DNA of 57,900 nucleotides from Phascolarctobacterium sp. (GTDB lineage: Bacteria; Bacillota; Negativicutes; Acidaminococcales; Acidaminococcaceae): the NCBI GenBank assembly GCA_021201965.1, contig JAJQDY010000050.1:1-57900 (forward strand), given 5' to 3'. Of this stretch, positions 219 through 54,293 are shown piece after piece (positions within the stretch are counted from its first letter, which is position 1; every line of letters begins with the position of its first letter). The position numbers and the translations under genes are program-made. The notes beneath the pieces were generated by a model, which was not told the origin of the DNA, did no database searches, and saw only the letters and a list, made by a program, of their open reading frames with translations.

Positions 219-3200
219 ATGAAAAAATACTTAAAAATGTCTTGCAGGTGGTGGGGGTGGGACTTTTATTCTAATGATAATTGTACTTTTGACACAAACT
301 ACGCACAGAACAATTATTACGGCAATGCCATCTATAATTTAGGCACAATAACGGAAATCAAGGACAGTTATATTACTAATAACTGATGGTACAATGCAGG
401 CAGCTATGCTGGGACTTATTGCGGCGGTGGCATCTATAGCTGGTGTGGCACAATTGAGACAATTGATGACTGTACATTTACGGTAAACTATTCATATGAT
501 AGTTCAGGCGCTGCCATATTCAACGACTCTAGCTACATCGTCACAATTTTCAACACTGAATTTTCTGGAAATAACACTGCCTGGCTCGGCGGCGCTATCT
601 ATAACTATGACGCCACCATAGGCAGTATCACGAACAGCACCTTCACGTCAAACTATGCCGGGCAGGATAGCGGCGCCATCTATAACTTCTGAGAACCGGA
701 GAGTGTAAACGGTGAATGTATCATCGGCAACATTGATAGCGTAACTTTTGATTCAAACACTTCCGTCGAATACGGCGGCGCCATCTTTAATCACGGCTAC
801 ATAGGCCTTGATGCGGACGGGGAAACCATCACGGGCGGCATTACAAATTCTGTCTTTACGGAAAATCAGTCCGGACGTGGCGGCGCCATCTATAACGGCA
901 TCCAGATGGAGACAGGTTCATCCGGTAACTTTGACAATATCATAACGACCATCGATAACTGCTATTTCTACAAGAACAACGCCACTAATTTCGGCGGTGC
1001 CATCTATAATTACGATAACGCCTACATCTGGAACATCTCGAATAACATTTTCGAAGAAAACACGGCTGAAAACGGAAACGGCGGCGCCATAGAAAACGCC
1101 GAAAAAGGAAGCGTAATCGGGACCATTGCCAATAACCAGTTCCTGAGAAACGACGTCAGCAAAAGCGACCACGACGGCGGCGCCATCTACAACCACGGCG
1201 TCACCATGACCGAAGTTTCGGGCGATACCTTCACCGGCAACTTCGCAGTTTCTGAAAGCGGCAAGGCAGCAGGCGGCGCAATCTATAATAGCGACAGCAT
1301 CAGCACCTTCTCCGTTACGGACCTCACCGGCAACTACGATGAAGGCACAACGAGCGCAATAGGCGGCGCAATTTACGATGAAGGGGCATCCGAGATTACC
1401 GTAACGGGCGACGTTACCGGCAACCACGCCACAGCATCGTCAGGCGATGCCTATGGCGGAGCAATTTGTGCGGGCGAAGGCACCGTTGTTACCTTAAGCG
1501 GCAACATCACCGGGAACTCCGCAACTAGCACTACGGCGCTTGGCGGAGCCATCTACAACGCAGGCACCGTAAATATCAATATTGAAGACCAGGATGCGGT
1601 AATAAGCGGAAACACGGCAGTAAGCGGCGGAACGGAAGAAGCAAACGTCCTCTACGGTGAGGCCGCATCCGTAACCAATTTTAACCTTACTGATGCCACA
1701 TTACGCCTGGACGACAGCCTTACTGGCGAGACCGGCTTTGAAATCAATATTTCGGGTAACGGGATAGACGCAACTACATTCTATATGTATAACGACATTA
1801 ACGACTCCAACCTCTCCATAGGCGGGACGACCTTAAATACCATGAACGGCGAGGTCCATACCTACAACGTGAACCAGTTCACTGTTTCAGGGGACTTCGA
1901 CATGAGGGCCGATATCAACCTTGGCAATGAGACCATGGACCGCTTCGTTACAAACGGCAACAGTTACGGCGAAGCCCAGGGCACGCTTAATGTATCTGCC
2001 ATGAACGTGGTAAAAGACACGAGTAAGAGCGGGGTCGGCATATACTTTGCGGAACCGGGACTTAAGGAAGACGTAACCTCATCAGTATCGGATGTTATGG
2101 GTCCAATAAACACATACACCATATCCTACGATAAGAACTATTACGGCAGCTAAGGCGATGACGGCGGCTATTTCGTATTCGATAAGACCGGTACCAACCA
2201 TGCGGCCATGATGTCATCCGTTGCCATGGCAAGCGCCTACAACGCCATGAACATAATGTTCGAATACTGCTTCGATCATTCCGACTACTACATGAAACTC
2301 CCCAGCGAGACACGTCTTGCCATAATGGAAAAAGCCAAAGCCGCAAAGGCAGGCAAGCTTTCCGCAAAGAACGGGACAACAGTTGAAGAGGAAGCCCAGA
2401 AGATTGATGATGCAAGGGCTGAAGAGCTGGCTTCCCGCAAAGGGAATAAATTCGACGATCACGACAACGTGCTCCACGTTTACGAACAGCACTAGCTGAC
2501 CCGTCCCGGCGCATGGGTAAAGACCTTTGCCACGAAAGAGAGCATACCTTTCACGGGTAAGTTAACCGCCAGGGACAAATACTACGGCGGCATCATTGGC
2601 GTGGATACGGATTTCATGGAAGATAAGAAAGGCTGGGGCAACGTGTTTACGGGCTACGCCGGCTACCAGGAAATCCGCCAGAGCTACAGCGGCGGCAGCG
2701 TAAGGTAGGACGGCGGAATGATCGGCGCAACGGAAACCTTCTATAAGAAGAACTTCTACACTGCATGGACCATAGCAGCCGCATCCACGAGCGCAAAAGG
2801 CCGCAACATGTACGGGAATAAAAGCTCACGCCTCTACACCTACGGCATCGCAACGAAATCTGGCTGGAACCTTGAATACGACGGCGGGAAATACATTGTG
2901 CTCCCGACATTCATGGCATCCTACACGAACGATGACCTGAGAAGTTACACCAATGCAGCCGGGCTCAAGGTAGACGGGGACGACATGCGCACCGTACAGC
3001 TTAACTCGAACATTAAGTGGATCAGGAACTACAATAACGGCTGGCAGCCATACCTCACTGCGGGCGAAGTATGGACCGTGGGACAGAAGTCCAGGGTACG
3101 CGTTGACGGAACCAAACTGGATGAACTGCATCTTAGACCTTGCACCGAGTACGAAATCGACGTGCAGAAGCGCTGGGCCAATAACTACGACGGCTATGCA

Positions 3201-3272
3201 AAATTCCTGGAGCATGCGGGCAGACGCAGGGGCTTCCTTGCAAAACTCGGCTTCAGGTGGACCTTTAACTGA
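219..3272 (+). pseudogene. Autotransporter adhesin, broken by five in-frame stop codons
   Basis: A single reading frame runs from about 219 to a TGA at 3270-3272. It is interrupted by TGA 384, TGA 690, TAA 2151, TAG 2493 and TAG 2706, with no frame change. The passenger (219 to about 2000) is a row of imperfect repeats with the core GGAIYN, typical of beta-helical type V secreted adhesins. After a linker rich in Ala, Lys and Glu (about 2200-2490) comes an outer-membrane beta-barrel domain (about 2490-3272). It is rich in Tyr/Gly/Trp strands, includes NGWQPYLTAGEVW near the end, and finishes in GFRWTFN. No signal peptide is visible: the first in-frame ATG (219) is followed by a short Lys-rich start that runs directly into passenger repeats, so the 5' end is missing too. 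It lies 175 bases from an IS30 end. An intact homologue would be an exported surface protein; this copy should not make one. Confidence 0.9.
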
Positions 3273-7181: not shown

Positions 7182-7954
7182 CGGGCGGCGTGTTCCCCCC
7201 GAAAAAGCGAATATTCATGGCGCTCACGCTGGCAAGCGTGCTTATCGGCGCCTTCCTCATCTATGTGGTGTGGAAGGTAACGGTGCCTGGGCTTGCCCAG
7301 ATAAACCCGGTACTTCCCCGCGTCATGAAAGCCGTAGCCTTCCTGGTTGTCGTGGCGCTGCTTCTTGGCGTTGCGGGAATCGTGCTGGCCCTTTTCGGCA
7401 TGCCAATACAGACCTATATCTATTTCTGGGCCTGGAAGGTAATAAACATCATGTTCCCCTTTTCCGTTGGGCTCGGGCGCCTCTTTAACGTGCCGAGGAG
7501 CAGGCTGGAACAGTCATTCATAGAAGTAAGCAATAACCTGGTCCTGAGGCATAAGGTGAAGGTGCCGGCGGAGATGGTAATGATCCTCCTTCCCCATTGC
7601 CTCCAGCTTGACATATGCGAACACAAAATAACAAAGAACATAGATAACTGCAGGCAGTGCGGCCGCTGCAGCGTGGGGCCTTTGGTTGAGCTCGCTAAAA
7701 AATACGGCTGCATCATGGACGTTGTCACAGGCGGCACCCTGGCCCGCCAGATGGTAAAGGAAGCAAGGCCTAAGGTCATCGTCGCCGTGGCCTGCGAAAG
7801 GGACCTTACCAGCGGAATCCAGGACGTCTTCCCAATGCCTGTCCTCGGCGTCTTAAACGAACGCCCCTTTGGGCCATGCTTTAATACGAAAGTCGATATC
7901 GGGAAAGTGGAAGAGGCCATAAAGGCCTTTACGGGTGACAGCGGTGCAGCGTGA
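7163..7954 (+). CDS. DUF116-family membrane protein
   Basis: A 263-residue protein of unknown function. Two hydrophobic segments (about residues 18-40 and 52-80) anchor it to the membrane. A cytoplasmic domain follows, with a cysteine cluster (CEHKITKNIDNCRQCGRC, from about residue 152) that could bind a metal or an Fe-S cluster. A later GGTLAR...VAVACERDL stretch is typical of DUF116. The gene lies between fmt and rsmB and overlaps both (19 and 20 bases). Co-expression with translation and rRNA-modification genes is clear, but it does not tell the function. Confidence 0.8.
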   Translation: MQGAGLTGGVFPPKKRIFMALTLASVLIGAFLIYVVWKVTVPGLAQINPVLPRVMKAVAFLVVVALLLGVAGIVLALFGMPIQTYIYFWAWKVINIMFPFSVGLGRLFNVPRSRLEQSFIEVSNNLVLRHKVKVPAEMVMILLPHCLQLDICEHKITKNIDNCRQCGRCSVGPLVELAKKYGCIMDVVTGGTLARQMVKEARPKVIVAVACERDLTSGIQDVFPMPVLGVLNERPFGPCFNTKVDIGKVEEAIKAFTGDSGAA

Positions 7955-9284
7955 CAGCGCCCGCGGTGCGGCGCTTTTTGTCCTTAGGGAAATATTCCTT
8001 GACGGCGCCTATATCAATATCGCCGTGAATAAATACCTGCGCGCCGCAGACCTTTCTGACAGGGACAGGCGCCTTATGACGGGAATCGTCTATGGGACGG
8101 TGAAGGCCATGGGGACCCTTGACTGGTACATAATGCAATGCACGGATAGGAAAAAGGGTAGGATCAATAAGGAAATCCTGACGGTCCTACGCATGGCGTT
8201 CTTCCAGCTGCTTTACATGGATAAGATCCCAGCATCCGTGGCTGTAAACGAAGCCGTGGAACTGGTAAAAAAGATAAGCCCTTCCGGGGCAAACTTCGTG
8301 AACGGGGTGCTCCGGGGCTTTTTAAGGAAAAAGGAAAGCTTCGCCTTCCCGGATGAAAAAGGGGATGAGGCGGGATACCTTGCCCTGAAGCTCTGCCACC
8401 CGAGGTGGCTTATAAAAAAATGGCTCAAATACTACGGCAGGGAGGGTACGGAAGCCCTCTGCGCATTTAATAATTCGCCGGCGCCCCTAACCCTAAGGGT
8501 CAACACATTAAAGACGGACAGGGAAACGCTACTTGCCGCGCTCGCGGGGCTTCATGCCGGGGCGGCGCCTTCAAGGTGGAGCGCAGATGGGATAATCTGC
8601 AGCGCGCACCCCGGGCTTAAGGCCCTTTTTGATCTCTCCCCGGGCGGCTTTTACATCCAGGATGAAAGCTCCATGATTGCGGCGGCCATTGCAGCGCCAG
8701 AAAAAGGCGAAACTGTCATCGACATCTGCGCGGCGCCTGGCGGCAAGGCCACCCATATGGCGCAACTTATGGGAAATAAAGGGCGCATAATTGCTTCAGA
8801 TATATATGAGCACAAGCTCGGCCTCATAAAGGAAAATGCGGCAAGGCTTGGCATAAACATCATAAGGACATATCTCCAGGATGCAAGGGATGTGCGGGAG
8901 GAGTGGCTCTGCGCCGCAGATAAGGTGCTCGTCGACGCCCCCTGCAGCGGACTTGGCGTCTTAAGGAGGAAGGCGGAAGCCCGCTGGAGAAAGGGCAGGA
9001 TGTCCTTAAAGGAGTTCCCACCCCTCCAGCTTGAAATCCTTGAAACCGCAGGGAAATATGTTAAGGACGGTGGACTCCTCATCTACAGTACCTGTACCTT
9101 GGAGCAGCAAGAAAACCACTACATGGCACTGGAGTTCCTGGAAAGGAACCCGGAATGGGAATACGCTGATTTTCCGCACCCCGTGACGGGGGAGACGGTA
9201 AATGAGCTGCAGCTACTGCCGCAAAAGGATAATATTGACGGCTTTTACATCTGCGTCTTCAGGCGCAAAGGAAGGGCAAAATGA
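7935..9284 (+). CDS. rsmB: 16S rRNA (cytosine-967-C5)-methyltransferase RsmB
   Basis: Methylates C967 of 16S rRNA using S-adenosylmethionine. The 449 residues contain an N-terminal NusB-like RNA-binding domain (about 1-140) and a class I methyltransferase domain. The SAM-binding motif is DICAAPGGKATHM (from about 263). The two catalytic cysteines of the family are Cys337 in DAPCSGLG and Cys387 in YSTCT. The GTG start at 7935 lies inside the end of the DUF116 gene; a GTG three codons later is also possible. The end overlaps rlmN by four bases. Confidence 0.95.
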   Translation: MTAVQRDSARGAALFVLREIFLDGAYINIAVNKYLRAADLSDRDRRLMTGIVYGTVKAMGTLDWYIMQCTDRKKGRINKEILTVLRMAFFQLLYMDKIPASVAVNEAVELVKKISPSGANFVNGVLRGFLRKKESFAFPDEKGDEAGYLALKLCHPRWLIKKWLKYYGREGTEALCAFNNSPAPLTLRVNTLKTDRETLLAALAGLHAGAAPSRWSADGIICSAHPGLKALFDLSPGGFYIQDESSMIAAAIAAPEKGETVIDICAAPGGKATHMAQLMGNKGRIIASDIYEHKLGLIKENAARLGINIIRTYLQDARDVREEWLCAADKVLVDAPCSGLGVLRRKAEARWRKGRMSLKEFPPLQLEILETAGKYVKDGGLLIYSTCTLEQQENHYMALEFLERNPEWEYADFPHPVTGETVNELQLLPQKDNIDGFYICVFRRKGRAK

Positions 9285-10335
9285 AAAAGGATCTTTTCGG
9301 CCTGGACCCTGAAGAGCTCGAAAGGCTCTTCCTGACCCTCGGGCTTAAGAAGTTCAGGGCAAGGCAGGTCTTTGAATGGCTGCATGAAAAATATGTCGCA
9401 TCCTTCGGCGAGATGCGCAATATCAGCAGTGCGGACCGGGAAATCCTTGAGGAAAATTTCACGCTGCTGCCCTGCGATGTCAAAGTTGAAAGGGAAGAAT
9501 ATTCGCATGACACGCTTACAACTAAGCTTCTCATAAAATTCCCCGACGGAAACGCCGTCGAAACGGTGCTCATGAAGCATGATTACGGCTACAGCGCCTG
9601 CGTCTCGAGCCAGGCGGGCTGCGCCATGGACTGCGCCTTCTGCGCGAGCACGTTAGATGGCTGCGCAAGGAGCCTTACGGCCGCGGAAATCCTGGTCCAG
9701 GTGCATCTTTTCGGCATGGCCCTTAAGGAAAAGTGGCAGGCCGTTTCCCGCATCGTGGTCATGGGAAGCGGGGAGCCGATGATGAATTATGCAAATGTAA
9801 TGGCGGCCCCAACTTTCCTCCACAGGGAGGACGTGGCCAATATAAGCTATCGCAGCATGACAATCTCCACCTGCGGGATAATCCCCGGGATCGAGGACCT
9901 TACCGAGGAAGGGAAACCCATAAACCTTGCCGTGTCGCTCCATGCGGCAAGGTCCGATTTAAGGAATGAAATAATGCCCGTCAACAGGATCTACCCGTTC
10001 ATTGACGTCATAGCCGCTGCGAAAAGGTATGCGGAGCTCAGTGGGCTGCAGGTAACCTATGAATACATCATCATAAGGGACGTAAATGACGGCATCCTTG
10101 ACGCGGAGCTCGTAAGCCATGTCCTAAAGTTCAAACACGCCTCCGTGTGAACCTCATCCCTGCAAACCCGGTGCCTGAAAAAGGCATTGCGGCGCCAGGC
10201 GCAAAGGCCGCGGAGCGCTTCAGGAAGCTGCTGGAGAGTAACGGGATAAATGTCACTGTACGGAAGGAAATGGGAAAAGACATCAGCGCCGCCTGCGGCC
10301 AGCTGCGGGCAGATTACATAAAGGAAAGTAAGTGA
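9281..10335 (+). pseudogene. rlmN: 23S rRNA (A2503-C2) methyltransferase RlmN, split into two frames
   Basis: RlmN is a radical-SAM enzyme that methylates A2503 of 23S rRNA and A37 of some tRNAs. The first frame (9281-10150, 289 residues) has the radical-SAM cluster CAMDCAFC (Cys114, 118, 121) and the upstream Cys107 in CVSSQ, equivalent to E. coli Cys118. It stops at TGA 10148. The homologous C-terminus (NLIPANPVPEKG to CGQLRADY) continues in another frame, 10147-10335, opened by a GTG whose last two bases are shared with the stop (GTGA). That piece carries Cys50, equivalent to the methyl-carrying Cys355. The local sequence CCGTGTGAAC fits a two-base TG duplication. Without fusion or subunit assembly the enzyme would lack an essential cysteine. 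It may be a true mutation, a sequencing error or a coupled two-piece enzyme. Confidence 0.85.
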
Positions 10336-10339
10336 TTTA

Positions 10340-11074
10340 ATGCAGGTTGCCACCAGGAGCCATGTCGGCATGGTAAGGGAAAATAACGAGGACGCGCTGC
10401 TCCTTAAGGAGCCGTGCCTTTTTGCTGTTGCGGACGGCATGGGCGGGGCTGCCGCGGGGGAAGTGGCGAGCCACGAGGCATTAAGGACTTTTGGCGCCGC
10501 GGCTGAAGGGCTTTTTGAGGAAGGGGCGGAAACGCCTGAAGCAATACTGAAAAAAGCCGTCGGGAAGGCCAATGACCATATCTTTGCCCTGGCCAGCGCC
10601 AATGCGGATTACCAGGGTATGGGCACGACTCTCACCGCTCTTTACCTTAAGGGTGACGGTACCGCCTGCGCCGCGCACATTGGTGACAGTAGGCTCTATC
10701 TCTGCAGGGACGGGGCCCTAAGCCAGATAACCCATGACCATTCCTATGTGGCAAATCTCATCGAAAAACAGGAAATAACGGATTCCGAGGCCATGACCCA
10801 CCCGAAGCGGAACCTACTGCTTAAGGCTGTTGGTGTCGGGAAACCGGTGGAGCCAGATATTACCACGTTTGCCGTCGAAAAAGGGGACCTGATCCTCCTC
10901 TGCACCGACGGACTTTCAGACATGCTTACGGATGATGAAATGGAAAAAGCGCTTAATGGGCGCGGCATTGAAGATGCTGCTGATGCACTCCTTGAAAGGG
11001 CACTTGAAAACGGCGGCCGCGACAACGTCACCTTCATCTTCATCTTAGCGGAAGAGGGAGTGCTCAGTGAATAA
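10340..11074 (+). CDS. stp: PP2C-family serine/threonine phosphatase (Stp/PrpC)
   Basis: Dephosphorylates targets of the PrkC kinase encoded next to it. The 244 residues show the metal-binding PP2C motifs: ENNEDALLL near the N-terminus, VADGMGGAAAGE, HIGDSRLYL, LCTDGLSDML and the C-terminal GGRDNVT. It is a soluble single-domain protein of normal length. It starts four bases after the rlmN C-terminal frame and overlaps prkC by eight bases, the usual phosphatase-kinase pairing in Firmicutes. Confidence 0.96.
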   Translation: MQVATRSHVGMVRENNEDALLLKEPCLFAVADGMGGAAAGEVASHEALRTFGAAAEGLFEEGAETPEAILKKAVGKANDHIFALASANADYQGMGTTLTALYLKGDGTACAAHIGDSRLYLCRDGALSQITHDHSYVANLIEKQEITDSEAMTHPKRNLLLKAVGVGKPVEPDITTFAVEKGDLILLCTDGLSDMLTDDEMEKALNGRGIEDAADALLERALENGGRDNVTFIFILAEEGVLSE

Positions 11075-13022
11075 GGTAATCTTAAACAGCCGCTACAAAA
11101 TAATCCGCTTCATCGGCGGCGGCGGCATGGCCGAGGTATACCTTGCCCATGACATGCTCCTTGACAGGGACGTGGCCATAAAGATGCTGCGGGACCAGTT
11201 CATGGAGGACGGGGAGCTCCTGGAACAGTTCAGGCGCGAGGCAAAGAGCGCGGCAAGGCTCCGCCATTCCTATATCATAAATATCTACGATGTAATTTCC
11301 GATGAAAACGGGCAGTATATCGTCATGGAATACGTCGAGGGCGTGACGTTCAAGGAATTCCTCGCCGAAAACGGCGGGAAGCTTTCCGTGCCCGTCGTGC
11401 TGGAACTCGGCACCCGCCTTGCGGAGGCGCTGGAACATGCCCACAGGCATAACATCATCCACTGCGATATCAAGCCCCAGAACATTTTAATCAGTAAGGA
11501 CCTCGATCCCAAGATAGCCGATTTCGGCATTGCCAAAATGATCAGTAGCCATACCGTCATCTACACCTCATCCGTCATGGGTTCCGTGCATTACAGCCCT
11601 CCGGAGCAGGTTGCAGGGGAAAAGGTGACGGGGAGTAGCGACGTCTATTCCCTCGGCATCGTCCTTTTCGAAATGCTGACCGGGGAAGTGCCCTTTACCG
11701 GCGACACCCCCATGGCCGTTGCCATGATGCATAAGGAAAAACCGGTGCCGCCGCTGAAAAATTATCTTGATGACGTGCCGAATGGGCTCCAGGAAATAAT
11801 GGACAAGGCCCTTGGCAAAAACACGGATGAAAGGTACCTTGACGCAGGCGAGCTGCGCAGGGATCTTGAAAACCTGAAGGCAAGGCTCTATCATGAAGGC
11901 ACCGACTATAAGAAGGGCCTCAGCGTGACCATCCCGGTAAACGATCCATGGGAAGGCACGGAGTGGCCGAGCGCCCAAGAGGAAGGCGATCCCACCATGA
12001 TCTTGCGCCCCGGGCGCAGGCAGACGGAGGAAATATATTTCCATAAAAAGGGAGATGCGGTAAAACAGAAATGGAAGCTTAATTTTAACTTTATCCGTAT
12101 AGGCCTTACCAGGCTTATCATTATAGTCACCCTCATCGTCGTCGCCATTTCGGCGATGGCATATTACCACAGGGGACGGAGCAAGCTCGTCACCGTGCCT
12201 GATGTATTAAACATCCCCGTGGCCGATGCAAGGAAGGTTCTTGAAGATGCGGGCTTTATGGTGGACATTGATGAAAAGTCGTCAAGCACCGCAGCTCAGG
12301 GCCGGGTAATCAACCAGGCGCCCCAGAAAGGCGAAAAGCGCAGGAGCGGCACGAGGGTCTACATAACCGTGAGCCGGGGTCCCGCGGTAAAGGGACTGCC
12401 GGATGTTATCGGGTGCAATCTTGATGAGGCGACGAAACAGATTGAAGCCGCGGGCTATAAGGTGGGCAAGGTGACCATGAAGAGCAGCGACCGCCTGAAG
12501 GATGAGGTTATCAGCCAGTCCCCCATAGCCATTGAAAAGGTGGCGGAAGGGACGCCTGTTGATCTTGTCATTTCAGACGGCAGCATCCAGGTGCCGAACG
12601 TCCTCGGCCAGTCAAGAAGCTACGCCGAGCAGGCCATTACGGGCGCGGGGCTCCTCGTGGGGAATGTCACCACCGTTAAAAACAGCGCAGAAAAAGAAAC
12701 GGTCATTGCCATAAATCCCAAGGCGGGCACCTACCTTAAGGAAAAGGAACACGTTAACATTACGGTTTCGGAAGGCAGCGGGAATGCGCTCCAGGCTGAT
12801 ACGGGCGGTACGGTATCCGCAGCTGGCTTCGTTGATTTCGTGCTCCCCGGCACCAAGGAGCAGCATGTCCAGATTTACATAAACGATAGCCGCGGAAGGC
12901 GCCTTGTCTATGACGGCACGAAGAGGGGCGGGCTGAGGCTCCGCCAGAAGGTCGATGCCATGGGCAGCGCCACCGTGCAGCTTTACTGCGATAACAAGCT
13001 TGTCGAGGAAAAGAGGCTATGA
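11067..13022 (+). CDS. prkC: PASTA-domain serine/threonine protein kinase PrkC
   Basis: A membrane kinase that senses cell-wall fragments and controls growth, division and translation. The 651 residues show a glycine loop FIGGGGMAEVY (about 16-25), Lys39 in VAIKML, a catalytic loop HCDIKPQN (132-139), DFG, one transmembrane helix (about 345-367) and three extracellular PASTA repeats (about 375-575). A beta-rich C-terminal region (about 590-651) follows. The catalytic loop has HCD instead of HRD, so the Arg before the catalytic Asp is replaced. The GTG start overlaps stp, and the stop overlaps rsgA by four bases (ATGA). Confidence 0.96.
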   Translation: MNKVILNSRYKIIRFIGGGGMAEVYLAHDMLLDRDVAIKMLRDQFMEDGELLEQFRREAKSAARLRHSYIINIYDVISDENGQYIVMEYVEGVTFKEFLAENGGKLSVPVVLELGTRLAEALEHAHRHNIIHCDIKPQNILISKDLDPKIADFGIAKMISSHTVIYTSSVMGSVHYSPPEQVAGEKVTGSSDVYSLGIVLFEMLTGEVPFTGDTPMAVAMMHKEKPVPPLKNYLDDVPNGLQEIMDKALGKNTDERYLDAGELRRDLENLKARLYHEGTDYKKGLSVTIPVNDPWEGTEWPSAQEEGDPTMILRPGRRQTEEIYFHKKGDAVKQKWKLNFNFIRIGLTRLIIIVTLIVVAISAMAYYHRGRSKLVTVPDVLNIPVADARKVLEDAGFMVDIDEKSSSTAAQGRVINQAPQKGEKRRSGTRVYITVSRGPAVKGLPDVIGCNLDEATKQIEAAGYKVGKVTMKSSDRLKDEVISQSPIAIEKVAEGTPVDLVISDGSIQVPNVLGQSRSYAEQAITGAGLLVGNVTTVKNSAEKETVIAINPKAGTYLKEKEHVNITVSEGSGNALQADTGGTVSAAGFVDFVLPGTKEQHVQIYINDSRGRRLVYDGTKRGGLRLRQKVDAMGSATVQLYCDNKLVEEKRL

Positions 13023-38215: not shown

Positions 38216-39058
38216 ATGAAGACAGCAATGCTTATGGCGGCAATGATGGCGCTTTTCATGCTGCTTGGCAATTATTTCGGCGGCCAGCAGGGCATGTTCA
38301 TGATGCTCATAATTTCGCTTGCTATGAATTTTTATACCTATTGGAACAGTGACAGGCTGGTCCTTGCCCAGTATAAGGCCCGCAAGGTGGATATGAACAG
38401 CGCGCCCGGGCTCTACAGGATAGTCGATGGGCTTGCGAAAAAGGCCAACATACAGACGCCAAGGGTCTACATCGTGCCGAGCAATGTGCCGAATGCCTTT
38501 GCCACGGGGAGAAATCCGGAGCATGCAGCCGTTGCGGTACACAGCGGGCTCGTGGATATCTTAAATAAAGATGAAATAGAAGGCGTCATCGGCCATGAGC
38601 TGAGCCACATCCTGCACCGCGATACCTTAATCAGCACGGTTGCAGCATCCATGGCCGGCGCAATAACGTATATTGCCCAGTTCGGTTTCTTTTTCAGCGG
38701 CGGGCGCAATAACAGGAATTCCATCGGCTCGCTCCTAATACTGCTTCTGGCGCCCATGGCTGCCATGGTAATCCAAATGGCGGTTTCAAGGTCCAGGGAA
38801 TATGAGGCGGACAGGTCAGGCGGGGCGCTCTGCGGCAATCCAGATGCACTGGCTGATGCGCTGTTGAAGCTCGACCAGTATTCCAAGAGGGAGCTCATGC
38901 AGAATGCCACCCCGACCACAGCGCATATGTTTATCGTGAATCCCTTTTCCGCCAAGAACATGCAGAAAATGTTCAGCACGCATCCCAGCACGGAAGAGCG
39001 CGTAAAACTGCTCCGGGAACAGGCTGAGGTAATGCGTGAGAATGGAGAACTTAGATGA
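38216..39058 (+). CDS. htpX: Membrane zinc metalloprotease HtpX
   Basis: Quality-control protease of inner-membrane proteins. The 280 residues have two N-terminal transmembrane segments (about 1-20 and 24-42), the zinc motif HELSH (127-131), further hydrophobic segments near 140-185, and the third-ligand region SREYEADRSG. Length and domain order are normal. GGGAGGAA lies nine bases before the ATG. The end overlaps the M42 peptidase by four bases (ATGA). Confidence 0.95.
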   Translation: MKTAMLMAAMMALFMLLGNYFGGQQGMFMMLIISLAMNFYTYWNSDRLVLAQYKARKVDMNSAPGLYRIVDGLAKKANIQTPRVYIVPSNVPNAFATGRNPEHAAVAVHSGLVDILNKDEIEGVIGHELSHILHRDTLISTVAASMAGAITYIAQFGFFFSGGRNNRNSIGSLLILLLAPMAAMVIQMAVSRSREYEADRSGGALCGNPDALADALLKLDQYSKRELMQNATPTTAHMFIVNPFSAKNMQKMFSTHPSTEERVKLLREQAEVMRENGELR

Positions 39059-40124
39059 AAAAGAATCTGCAGTGGCTGAAGGAATTTTCCGAAACCTGCG
39101 GTGTTTCAGGATTTGAAGGGCGCATGAAGGCGCTTACGGTAAAGAGGCTCACTGGTCTCTGCGATGTGAGCTACGACAGGCTGGGCAGTGTGGTCTCCAC
39201 AAAAAAGGGGCCGGCTGCGCCTTGCATTATGCTTGCAATCCATATGGATGAAATAGGCTTCCTCGTGAAGCACTTTACCAAGGAAGGCTTTTTGAAATTC
39301 ACCTGCCTCGGCGGCTGGTGGGAACAGGTAATGCTGAGCCAGCGCGTCACCGTCCATGGATCAAATGGCGATCTTGTGGGCGTAATAGGCAGCAAAACTC
39401 CCCATGTTTTAAGTCCTGAAGAACGTAAGAAAGTGGTCCAGAAAAAGGATATGTATATTGATATCGTGGCCGAAAGCGCAAAAGCGGCAAGGGAACTTGG
39501 CGTCTTTGAAGGCTGTCCCGCAACTCCCTGCGTTGAAATGGCCGTCATGGACGATGGGAATACCCTCATCGGCAAGGCCTGGGATAACCGCATGGCTGTG
39601 CCGTCATGGCGGATGTTATGGAAAACCTGGCGAAAAATCCGGGACCTAATACCGTCTGCGGCGTTGCCACGGTCCAGGAGGAAGTGGGCCTGTGCGGCGC
39701 ATAGACCAGCGCCAACATGCTTAAACCCGATATTGCCCTTGTCATTGACACCTGCGTTGCGGGAGGCACGCCCGGGGTTGCTGATGACGTGGCCCCGGCA
39801 AAAATAGGCAAATGGGTTGCCGTGACAATATATGATGCCGGCATGATCCCCACCACCGCGCTCAGGGATTTCGCATTCAAGATTGCGGAAGATCTCGGCA
39901 TCCCGGTGCAGATAAGCATTTCGGAGGGAGGCGCGACCGACGGCGGAAGAATCCATCTTGCCGGGGAAGGCGTGCTCACCCTTACCTTCAGTATCCCGAC
40001 ACGCTACATCCACAGCCACCAGTCGGTAATCCACCTCGATGATTACGAAGTGGCAGTGAAACTCATTACCGCAATGGTAAGGAAACTTAACATGAGACAG
40101 TATAAGAAACTGCTCGGGACATAA
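39055..40124 (+). pseudogene. M42-family metallo-aminopeptidase, frameshift and nonsense
   Basis: An intact copy would be a cytoplasmic dinuclear-metal aminopeptidase or cellulase-like M42 enzyme of about 355 residues. The first 180 residues are normal, with His63 and Asp65 in AIHMDEIGF and the bridging Asp177 in KAWDNRM. One G appears missing near 39594, since ATGGCTGTGCC should read ATGGGCTGTGCC; the frame shifts and runs off-family to 39807. The original frame continues with [11 protein letters not shown] but meets a TAG at 39702, where a Lys would be expected before TSANMLKPDIA. The remainder to 40124 is good. Two independent lesions make this a true pseudogene. It is coupled to htpX by ATGA. 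Confidence 0.9.
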
Positions 40125-51529: not shown

Positions 51530-52385
51530 ATGAAGCAGCTAATCGTAAATGCTGATGATTTCGGGCTTCATGAACAAATAAATAAAGGAATAAGCAAGGG
51601 GTTCCAGGAGGGTTTCATCACGAGCGCTTCACTTATGTGGAGTGCGCCTGCATATCAAGATGCAGTGGTCACGGCCATGGAAAATCCTGGGCTCGGCATG
51701 GGCATACATCTTACTTTAATCGGCTCAATTGCCACTGTATTGCCGAAAAGCAGGATAAAAAGCCTGCTGGACGGCGCAGGACTTTTCCTTCCCGACTACA
51801 TGGTATTTGCCAGGCGCTTCTATAGTGGTAAAATAAAAAGTGATGAGTTTGAGGCGGAACTCCGTGCGCAAATAGAAAGGGCCCTTGCATCTGGCCTCAG
51901 AATAACGCACCTGGACAGCCACCAGCACCTGCATGTGTTTCCTGATATTCTTGAGATTGTCTTAGGGCTGTGCCTTGAATATAAAATAGGGGCAGTCAGG
52001 ATTCCCAGGGAGGATTATCTTTTCTGCGGCGGCTTTAATGCGAAAGGGCGCTTTTTCGCAAGGGGAGGCTTGTCGTTTTTCGCTGCCAGGGCGGCGAAAA
52101 GTGTGCGGGATACAGGGATACTTTACCCGGACCATTTTTTTTGGCATGCTGGCAGGCGGCAACTTAAATGAGCTGTTCGTTAAAAACATTATCCTTGCAT
52201 TGCCCGAAGGGACAAGCGAAATTATGACTCACCCGGGACTTAAAACTGCTGAACTTGCCGCTAAGTTCCGCTGGGATTATCACTGGGAAGATGAACTGGA
52301 AGCATTTCTTTCAGCTGAAAATAAAAATTTACTGAAGCAGCAGAATGTTGCTCTAACAGATTTTGGTGGTTTATTTGGTAAATGA
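51530..52385 (+). pseudogene. YdjC/ChbG-family carbohydrate deacetylase, frameshifted at a T tract
   Basis: YdjC-type proteins are metal-dependent N-deacetylases of chitooligosaccharides or glycolipid sugars. The first frame (51530-52171) has the metal motif NADDFG, HLTLIGS, and HLDSHQHLH. It loses family resemblance after YPDHFFW. The expected continuation FFGMLAGGNLNELFV to DFGGLFGK is in the next frame up to 52385. The switch lies in a run of eight T (52135-52142); seven T would restore one frame of about 284 residues. Possible causes are a mutation, slippage-based on-off switching or a sequencing error. It begins nine bases after rnhC. Confidence 0.88.
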
Positions 52386-53382
52386 CAAAGTATTCATGCG
52401 CCTTTTGTTGGTCTTCTGCTTTGTCTTCCTGGTATCGGTTGCGGTAATTTATTTTACCTTTGATATCAGAGCCATTACTTACCTGTCCATGTTCAATCCA
52501 TGGTGCATCCTCCTTGCACTGGGATGTCTGATGGTAGGGCTGATTTTTGACGGACTGAGACTTATAACACTGGCTGATGTGACAAATGAAAAACTTTCCG
52601 CAAAACAGGTTGTTAATGTGGTGCTGAGCAATTATTTCCTGGCTCTAGTGACTCCGGGTGCCAGCGGCGGATCCATCGCTCAGATCATGTTCATGAGAAA
52701 AGCCGGCGTTCCCGTGGCTAAAGCCACTGTCGTAATTCTGGTGCGGATCATCATGTCCATTTTTTTCTTAATTCTCTTAATGCCTGTGGTGTTGAACGAG
52801 GACCAGGATATAGTTGACTGGATGCCGGCATCCGTCATCATGGTGGTGTCGGTGCTTTTCATCTGTATTCCGGTAGCAGCTTTTTTCCTTATGCGGACCC
52901 AGTATCCGGAAAAATGGCTTGAGAAGATTTTGGGAAAGTTTTCTTACACCACTCAACAGAACTGCTTAATCTGGTACAAGGAGTTTAAAAACGCCTTTGC
53001 AATAATGGCGAAGCACCCGTTGAAGATGGTCAGGGCATTTCTGGAATCAGGGGCAAGCCTACTTGCAATCTATTCCACGGTTCCTGCGTTCTTTTCCGGG
53101 ATGAACATAGAATACGATCTCTTGCAGGTTATAGGGAGGATGGTCCTCATAAACCTTGTCATCTATTTTTCACCTACACCCGGCGGTTCGGGTATTGCCG
53201 AAGCCGGATTCGTCGTGCTCTTTTCCAATATTCTTCCAAGCGGCCTTGTTGGAATAATGGCGGTGCTCTGGAGGTTTACGGCAGAATACTTACCATTTTT
53301 GCTCGGGGCTTTCGTATCCATAAGGGCATTAGGTTCCGATGTCATGGCGCTGTCCCCGGGGCACAGGGAGAATAATGAATGA
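52363..53382 (+). CDS. YbhN/UPF0104-family integral membrane protein (flippase-like)
   Basis: A 339-residue protein with about eight to nine hydrophobic segments, of the lysylphosphatidylglycerol synthetase/AglD flippase-like group. The family stretches LVTPGASGGSIAQI and YFSPTPGGSGIAEAG are both present. Such proteins are thought to move lipids or lipid-linked sugars across the inner membrane. The GTG start overlaps the end of the deacetylase frame; an ATG at 52396 is an alternative and neither has a strong ribosome-binding site. The end overlaps the epimerase by four bases. Confidence 0.85.
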   Translation: MVVYLVNDKVFMRLLLVFCFVFLVSVAVIYFTFDIRAITYLSMFNPWCILLALGCLMVGLIFDGLRLITLADVTNEKLSAKQVVNVVLSNYFLALVTPGASGGSIAQIMFMRKAGVPVAKATVVILVRIIMSIFFLILLMPVVLNEDQDIVDWMPASVIMVVSVLFICIPVAAFFLMRTQYPEKWLEKILGKFSYTTQQNCLIWYKEFKNAFAIMAKHPLKMVRAFLESGASLLAIYSTVPAFFSGMNIEYDLLQVIGRMVLINLVIYFSPTPGGSGIAEAGFVVLFSNILPSGLVGIMAVLWRFTAEYLPFLLGAFVSIRALGSDVMALSPGHRENNE

Positions 53383-54293
53383 AACTTTTAATTACTGGCG
53401 GTGCCGGGTTTATCAGTTCCCACATTCTGCATTGCCTCGCAGGGCAAAAACATGAAATAGTGGTACTTGATAACCTTTCGTACGGCAAACGTGAAAATGT
53501 ACCTCAAGGCATGCGGCTTGTGGGAACTGATATAAGAAGTGACCTTGATTCCCTTTTTGCCACGGAAAAATTTGCGACGGTAATACATCTTGCCGCACAG
53601 ACCATGGTGCATTATTCCATTGCGCATCCCATGGAAGACTGCGATGTCAATCTTCTTGGCATGATCAATGTTTTGGAGTGCTGCAGAAAATATGGGGTGA
53701 AAAATTTCATTTTTCCATCTACCGCGGCGGTTTACGGGGATAATCCCAATATTCCGCTTAAGGAAAGCGAAAGATTGAAACCTGCGTCATTTTACGGTAT
53801 AAGTAAAATGGCGGGAGAATACTATATGTACACCTACCATAACCTATGCGGTATGAATACTACGGTTCTCCGATTTTCCAACGTCTACGGGGAACGTCAG
53901 TTTAATGGTGGAGAAGCGGGGATTATCGGCGTTTTTTGTGAACTCCTGGCGGAAGGAAAGCCAGTCACCATTTTAGGTAACGGCATACAGACACGGGATT
54001 TTATCTATGTGGGCGACGTGGTGCGTGCCATTTCGGAGAGCATGAAACTCACGGGACATAACATAATAAACGTCTCAACGGGGAAAGAGACATCCATAGA
54101 GGATGTTCTTGCCGCATTTGAGGAAGCCATGGGCAGAAAAGCGAAAATTATCCACGCCCCGAGGCGGGAAGCGGATATTTTCTGATCGGTCCTCGACAAT
54201 ACCCTCTGCAAGAAAATATTAAGCTACCGGCCGCAGATGAAAATAGCGGAAGGAATAAAACGTACCTATGAGTACCGATTGGAGAAGAAATGA
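53379..54293 (+). pseudogene. NAD-dependent sugar epimerase, truncated by a nonsense codon
   Basis: An extended short-chain dehydrogenase, probably acting on a nucleotide sugar. The NAD motif GGAGFISSH has Ser13 where a third Gly is usual. The catalytic Ser (PSTAAVYGD) and Tyr-Lys (FYGISK) are present, as is RDFIYVGDVV. A TGA at 54183 stops it at 268 residues; the same frame continues with SVLDNTLCKKILSYRPQ and ends at 54293, overlapping the next gene's ATG. The expected sequence before SVLDN would be Arg, so CGA to TGA is the simplest change. Loss of the last 36 residues removes part of the sugar-binding domain, so function is doubtful but not excluded. Confidence 0.8.

Follow-up and report, generated by a model that had tools for sequence, protein, structure and literature searches.

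What does an rlmN gene encode when its reading frame is divided in two by a start-stop overlap: an enzyme of two polypeptides, a gene that has been broken in the organism, or an ordinary gene that was misread in a draft? The question is raised by a locus of Phascolarctobacterium sp. (assembly GCA_021201965.1, contig JAJQDY010000050.1), of which the stretch of 57,900 nt analysed here is called the window.

Results and Discussion

Two consecutive pieces of one RlmN

Direct reading of the junction letters (...CAC GCC TCC GTG TGA ACC...) and family profile matches bear out what an earlier note had described from the window alone: RlmN is encoded in two frames that overlap by 4 nt and meet at GTGA (10147-10150), the frame of the radical-SAM core ends in GTG TGA, and the second frame opens at that same GTG and carries a Cys, its only one, that aligns with the C-terminal Cys of RlmN (Table 1). 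Against the RlmN model TIGR00048, piece 1 matches positions 6-284 of 355 with 257.8 bits and piece 2 positions 290-348 of 355 with 57.6 bits. The cut-off of 290 bits is reached by neither piece alone, and together they make up consecutive stretches of one family, in order, over almost the whole length of the model. The gene order rsmB-rlmN-stp-prkC is found in all of the relatives' loci that were fetched with flanks (20/20), the neighbours being named from sequence features. With two successive parts of a single family lying in a conserved gene order, the split is not a chance juxtaposition of frames.

Table 1. Positions of the split gene, its neighbours and the other broken genes in the window.
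Feature	Coordinates	Strand	Remarks
rsmB-like gene	7935..9284	+	open frame upstream of rlmN, which it overlaps at ATGA
rlmN, first piece	9281..10150	+	289 aa; N-terminal part, CxxxCxxC radical-SAM core; terminates GTG TGA
Junction GTGTGA	10145..10150	+	piece 1 stop overlaps piece 2 GTG start; two bases more than in one-frame relatives
rlmN, second piece	10147..10335	+	62 aa; NLIPANPV motif and catalytic Cys; GTG start, other frame
stp-like (PP2C-type phosphatase) gene	10340..11074	+	downstream neighbour, open frame
M42 aminopeptidase gene, broken	39055..40115	+	frame change near 39594, in-frame TAG at 39702
YdjC-family gene, broken	51530..52373	+	frame change at or near T8 run 52135-52142
NAD-dependent epimerase gene, broken	53379..54269	+	in-frame TGA at 54183

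The CxxxCxxC radical-SAM motif is present, as is the CVSSQ Cys (piece 1 reads CVSSQAGCAMDCAFC in alignment with 6fz6). Residues 1-61 of piece 2 align with residues 306-366 of E. coli RlmN (3rf9), and by simple offset the one Cys of this piece (residue 50) is residue 355 of 3rf9, C355 being the methyl-carrying Cys of the E. coli enzyme. This Cys, in ISAACGQLR, also aligns with 6fz6, and it lies in a reading frame other than that of piece 1. The best segments of piece 1 are 52-64% identical to those of 20 relatives. Identity as Cfr was considered for piece 1 and rejected, since the Cfr models score 161-170 bits, below the RlmN model. No second rlmN was found elsewhere in the same assembly.

A single frame in the relatives

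The genomes compared from the taxonomic family number 59 including the window's own, and an RlmN match is found in 56 of the relatives, the two without being G001 (73% complete) and G038 (84%). RlmN is full-length and in one frame in 51 of these 56, a piece at a contig edge in four (G011, G013, G028 and G037) and an interrupted piece in one (G046). Across the junction all 56 have one frame. A search of related genomes for the same split, which the earlier note had proposed as a check, thus found it in none of the 56 family relatives with RlmN. Stops flagged in G033 and G044 precede the start, and the flag in G039 is the terminal stop. In the other same-genus genome, G001, neither RlmN nor PrkC is matched and RsmB gives a weak partial match (28%), so that it is uninformative on the site.

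The peptide across the junction, KFKHASVNLIPANP in the window's own spelling, is identical in five relatives (G015-G019), and at the junction site the codon pair GTG followed by AAC or AAT occurs in 9/54 relatives. Since the relatives are uniformly one-frame, the ancestral state of rlmN, as read from these genomes, is a single frame, to which the window adds two bases within a conserved Val-Asn codon pair.

Two relatives have peculiarities of their own. The RlmN piece of G046 (contig C13, L094) has an in-frame TAA, at a codon for Tyr in close relatives, eight codons before the junction Val. This is close to the place where the window's gene is interrupted, but the lesion is a nonsense codon and not a frameshift, in a gene cut short by a contig edge; it is presumably an independent event or an error. 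G047 has one full and one partial rlmN that are closely similar (C40 and C105; L124 and L134), perhaps a strain duplication in the bin.

Origin of the overlap

We propose that one ancestral rlmN gained two bases within the conserved Val-Asn pair (GTG-AAC), most simply by duplication of TG, with replication slippage as the probable route. The earlier note had named TG duplication as the simpler explanation, and it fits all that is seen: the junction peptide is normal for the family and the frame change amounts to two extra bases. Duplication of TG in a GTG-A context makes GTGTGA, and therefore produces in one step both the stop and the GTG start that overlaps it. The resemblance of the GTGA overlap to translational coupling, also pointed out in the earlier note, is accordingly half sustained: the overlap itself is present, whereas no Shine-Dalgarno sequence accompanies it and its coupled look is, on the reading given here, mechanical, a by-product of the duplication.

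The putative Shine-Dalgarno pairing of the piece 2 GTG, at -0.3 kcal/mol, is the weakest among 29 starts that we picked within the window, compared with -8.5 kcal/mol for the rlmN start and a median of -3.1 kcal/mol for random places. Such a sequence before the second start of a coupled pair is helpful, and not always required. The RNA around the junction folds little better than its shuffles (z -1.35), and no Rfam element was found in 8500-11500 at E 0.1.

At the new TGA the ribosome would now halt after 289 codons. The first product would retain the radical-SAM core without the C-terminal 62 residues that bear the methyl-carrying Cys, and because this Cys is missing it is predicted to be inactive, with 23S A2503 and tRNA A37 predicted to be unmethylated.

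An alternative genetic code was also considered for the interrupted frames of the window and rejected. The picked ORFs of more than 150 aa in the window end in TGA (21), TAA (15) and TAG (8), and as the in-frame stops listed here include all three codons, no single codon reassignment explains them.

Selection on rlmN

On a fixed tree built from nine neighbour genes, in which the place of the window is poorly supported (61-62), the share of the gene tree that falls to the window's branch is 9.0% (piece 1) and 6.4% (piece 2), compared with 4.5-10.5% for the nine neighbours. Of the 21 genomes, the window has the highest rate of breaks in columns of piece 1 that are otherwise invariant (7/91, the others being at 5.6% or less). 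For rlmN as a whole the count is 8/116 vs 28/733 for the neighbours, which is not significant (p = 0.14), and the overall rate of the window, 36/849, is matched by several other genomes. Because the branch shares fall within the range of the neighbours and column breaks are not significantly raised, rlmN appears to have been constrained until recently, with at most slight erosion and no strong sign of long relaxed selection.

Other broken genes in the assembly

With the 697 ORFs of the related contig G031:C1 as reference, broken genes were surveyed at 100 places in 249 kb of the own assembly (18%) and at 197 places in 400 kb of a control contig, G015:C1. Raw flags were raised at 13/100 places in the own assembly vs 7/197 in the control (p = 0.005). 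After vetting, which was by eye or by stop number and not by a blind rule, 9/97 sampled conserved genes of the own assembly are judged to be broken vs 0/194 in the control (Fisher p = 4e-5); the window alone has 4/44 conserved genes broken, again vs 0/194 (p = 0.001). Alignments were viewed for all hits except r52 and r81. Own hits left out as antisense or noncoding are r52 (eight stops, 37% identity), r423 and r622 (no Pfam match), and r81 (eight stops), r423 and r374 were left out of the control likewise. DapB (r49) was counted as intact, its stop lying before the likely start, as were r33, r35, r258 and r419 of the control, with stops upstream of the likely start.

The nine broken genes encode RlmN, an M42 aminopeptidase, a YdjC-family protein, an NAD-dependent epimerase, an M20 peptidase, a RadA-like ATPase, an RNase E/G family protein, a uracil-DNA-glycosylase-family protein and an RNA methyltransferase, named from Pfam matches of the reference proteins except for RlmN, which is named from TIGR00048. 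Several lesions are found in two of the nine, namely a frame change and a TAG in the M42 gene, and a frame change and two stops in the RNA methyltransferase gene. At sites common to G031 and G015, radical changes number 45/988 (4.6%) in broken genes vs 368/12475 (2.9%) in intact ones (Mann-Whitney p = 0.027), a test in which 5/9 broken genes were scorable against 50 intact genes, and in which four intact genes exceed every broken one. Taken together, the pile-up of lesions and the erosion of broken genes favour real decay over random consensus error.

At 96% completeness the assembly measures 1.38 Mb, less than most genomes of the family, and is a draft of 92 contigs. Near its start the window holds one long frame (906-3272 and upstream) of autotransporter- or adhesin-like character, with a Chlam_PMP repeat match on 906-2150, that is interrupted by three in-frame stops, TAA at 2151 and TAG at both 2493 and 2706; the same frame has more stops upstream of 906.

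GC content is uneven across the assembly: it is 0.514 in the window, 0.510 in L138 and 0.521 in L150, and 0.386-0.438 in 15 of 20 sampled contigs (L136-L155), so that GC either varies strongly by region or the bin is mixed. Second copies of the tRNAs for Glu, Asn, Asp, Gly and fMet, in low-GC stretches of L246 (G000:C85), L234 (C64) and L242 (C7), differ from the other copies at 2-5 positions, and some of these changes look stem-breaking, as judged by eye. Second copies of the tRNAs for Val, Tyr and Met are identical to the other copies.

Weighing the explanations

On balance, it is probable that rlmN was recently inactivated by the two-base gain, as part of a wider loss of genes in a small genome; we infer a true lesion in the organism, a loss of activity and an origin by slippage. 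The good conservation of both pieces otherwise weighs against this reading. The main rival, ranking next, is a mistake in the draft consensus, the organism having an ordinary one-frame rlmN that lacks the two extra bases. We regard this as rather unlikely, while taking it seriously: the draft is in many contigs, both rlmN pieces are well conserved, a consensus of low quality could likewise raise the count of broken genes over the sampled contigs, and the spread of contig GC (0.386-0.521) casts doubt on the bin. Against such an error, lesions accumulate in some genes, three in-frame stops fall in the autotransporter-like frame close to the start of the contig, and those broken genes that could be scored show somewhat more erosion in the rest of their sequence. 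Random errors are not expected to produce this. The nine broken genes are, moreover, presumably all dispensable in model bacteria, which also speaks against such an error.

The earlier note had thought a two-subunit RlmN conceivable. Termination at the UGA would be followed by reinitiation at the overlapping GUG, and the 62-residue piece with the Cys would join the core in trans and restore activity; if true, nature would here have tested whether a radical-SAM methylase can be split. Family motifs are kept in both pieces and piece 2 evolves no faster than the neighbours, and in one study the 3' GUG of GUGUGA is used in E. coli reporters, aided by RF2-dependent termination-reinitiation (PMC9841429). 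The six-base start-stop motif there is identical to that of the window, but the E. coli motifs are start sites with a Shine-Dalgarno sequence, a strong one in the reporters (PMC9841429), whereas the motif of the window lies inside a gene and is without one. By analogy, low-level reinitiation at the window's GUG is possible in principle. As an account of the locus, a two-part enzyme finds no support and strikes us as very improbable, given that the split is shared by none of the 56 relatives, that the second start has next to no Shine-Dalgarno pairing, that the overlap is the expected outcome of a TG duplication at this place, and that other broken genes on the same contig need no such reading. 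Among the papers listed for a split or decayed RlmN, none announces a two-part RlmN in its title or abstract opening.

Least credible of all, to the point of being nearly dismissible, is recoding, in which the Val-tRNA on GUG would slip forward by two bases, onto the GUG that overlaps the stop, so that full-length RlmN is made. In GUGUG the two overlapping codons are indeed identical, the A site being occupied by a stop, and tRNA-Val mutants that slip forward in this manner exist; no paper on them is among the literature matches listed. A review describes hopping and, for reduced endosymbiont genomes, frameshifted genes that slippage of the transcript at long poly(A) runs partly corrects (PMC5009743). 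The rlmN site is, against this, not a long poly(A) run and is not conserved in relatives, the RNA fold at the junction is unremarkable, no Rfam element was found around it at E 0.1, and the two tRNA-Val genes among the 30/49 tRNA matches scanned are ordinary, of 76 nt and mutually identical.

Comparison with known systems

On the reading preferred here, recent inactivation, the split rlmN would mark, as one case, the decay of genes in a small draft genome. It also carries a caution, in that a start-stop overlap inside a gene may arise from nothing more than a TG duplication. The window's gene shares sequence, Cys motifs and gene order with RlmN (TIGR00048), the dual-specificity 23S rRNA/tRNA adenine-C2 methyltransferase, but differs in that a frame change and a stop interrupt its coding sequence beyond codon 289.

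An inactivated rlmN would be nothing out of the ordinary, as such loss is already documented in nature. RlmN is kept in only four mollicutes (PMC4014445). In M. tuberculosis, an rlmN frameshift is described for all known isolates of lineage 4.10, predicted to abolish function (PMC13158455). The likeness to the window is that there, too, the only rlmN is frameshifted in a natural population, with the loss predicted in silico; the differences are that the M. tuberculosis frameshift lies about halfway through the protein and is backed by many sequenced isolates with drug-response data (PMC13158455), whereas that of the window lies near the C-terminus and is seen in one draft genome.
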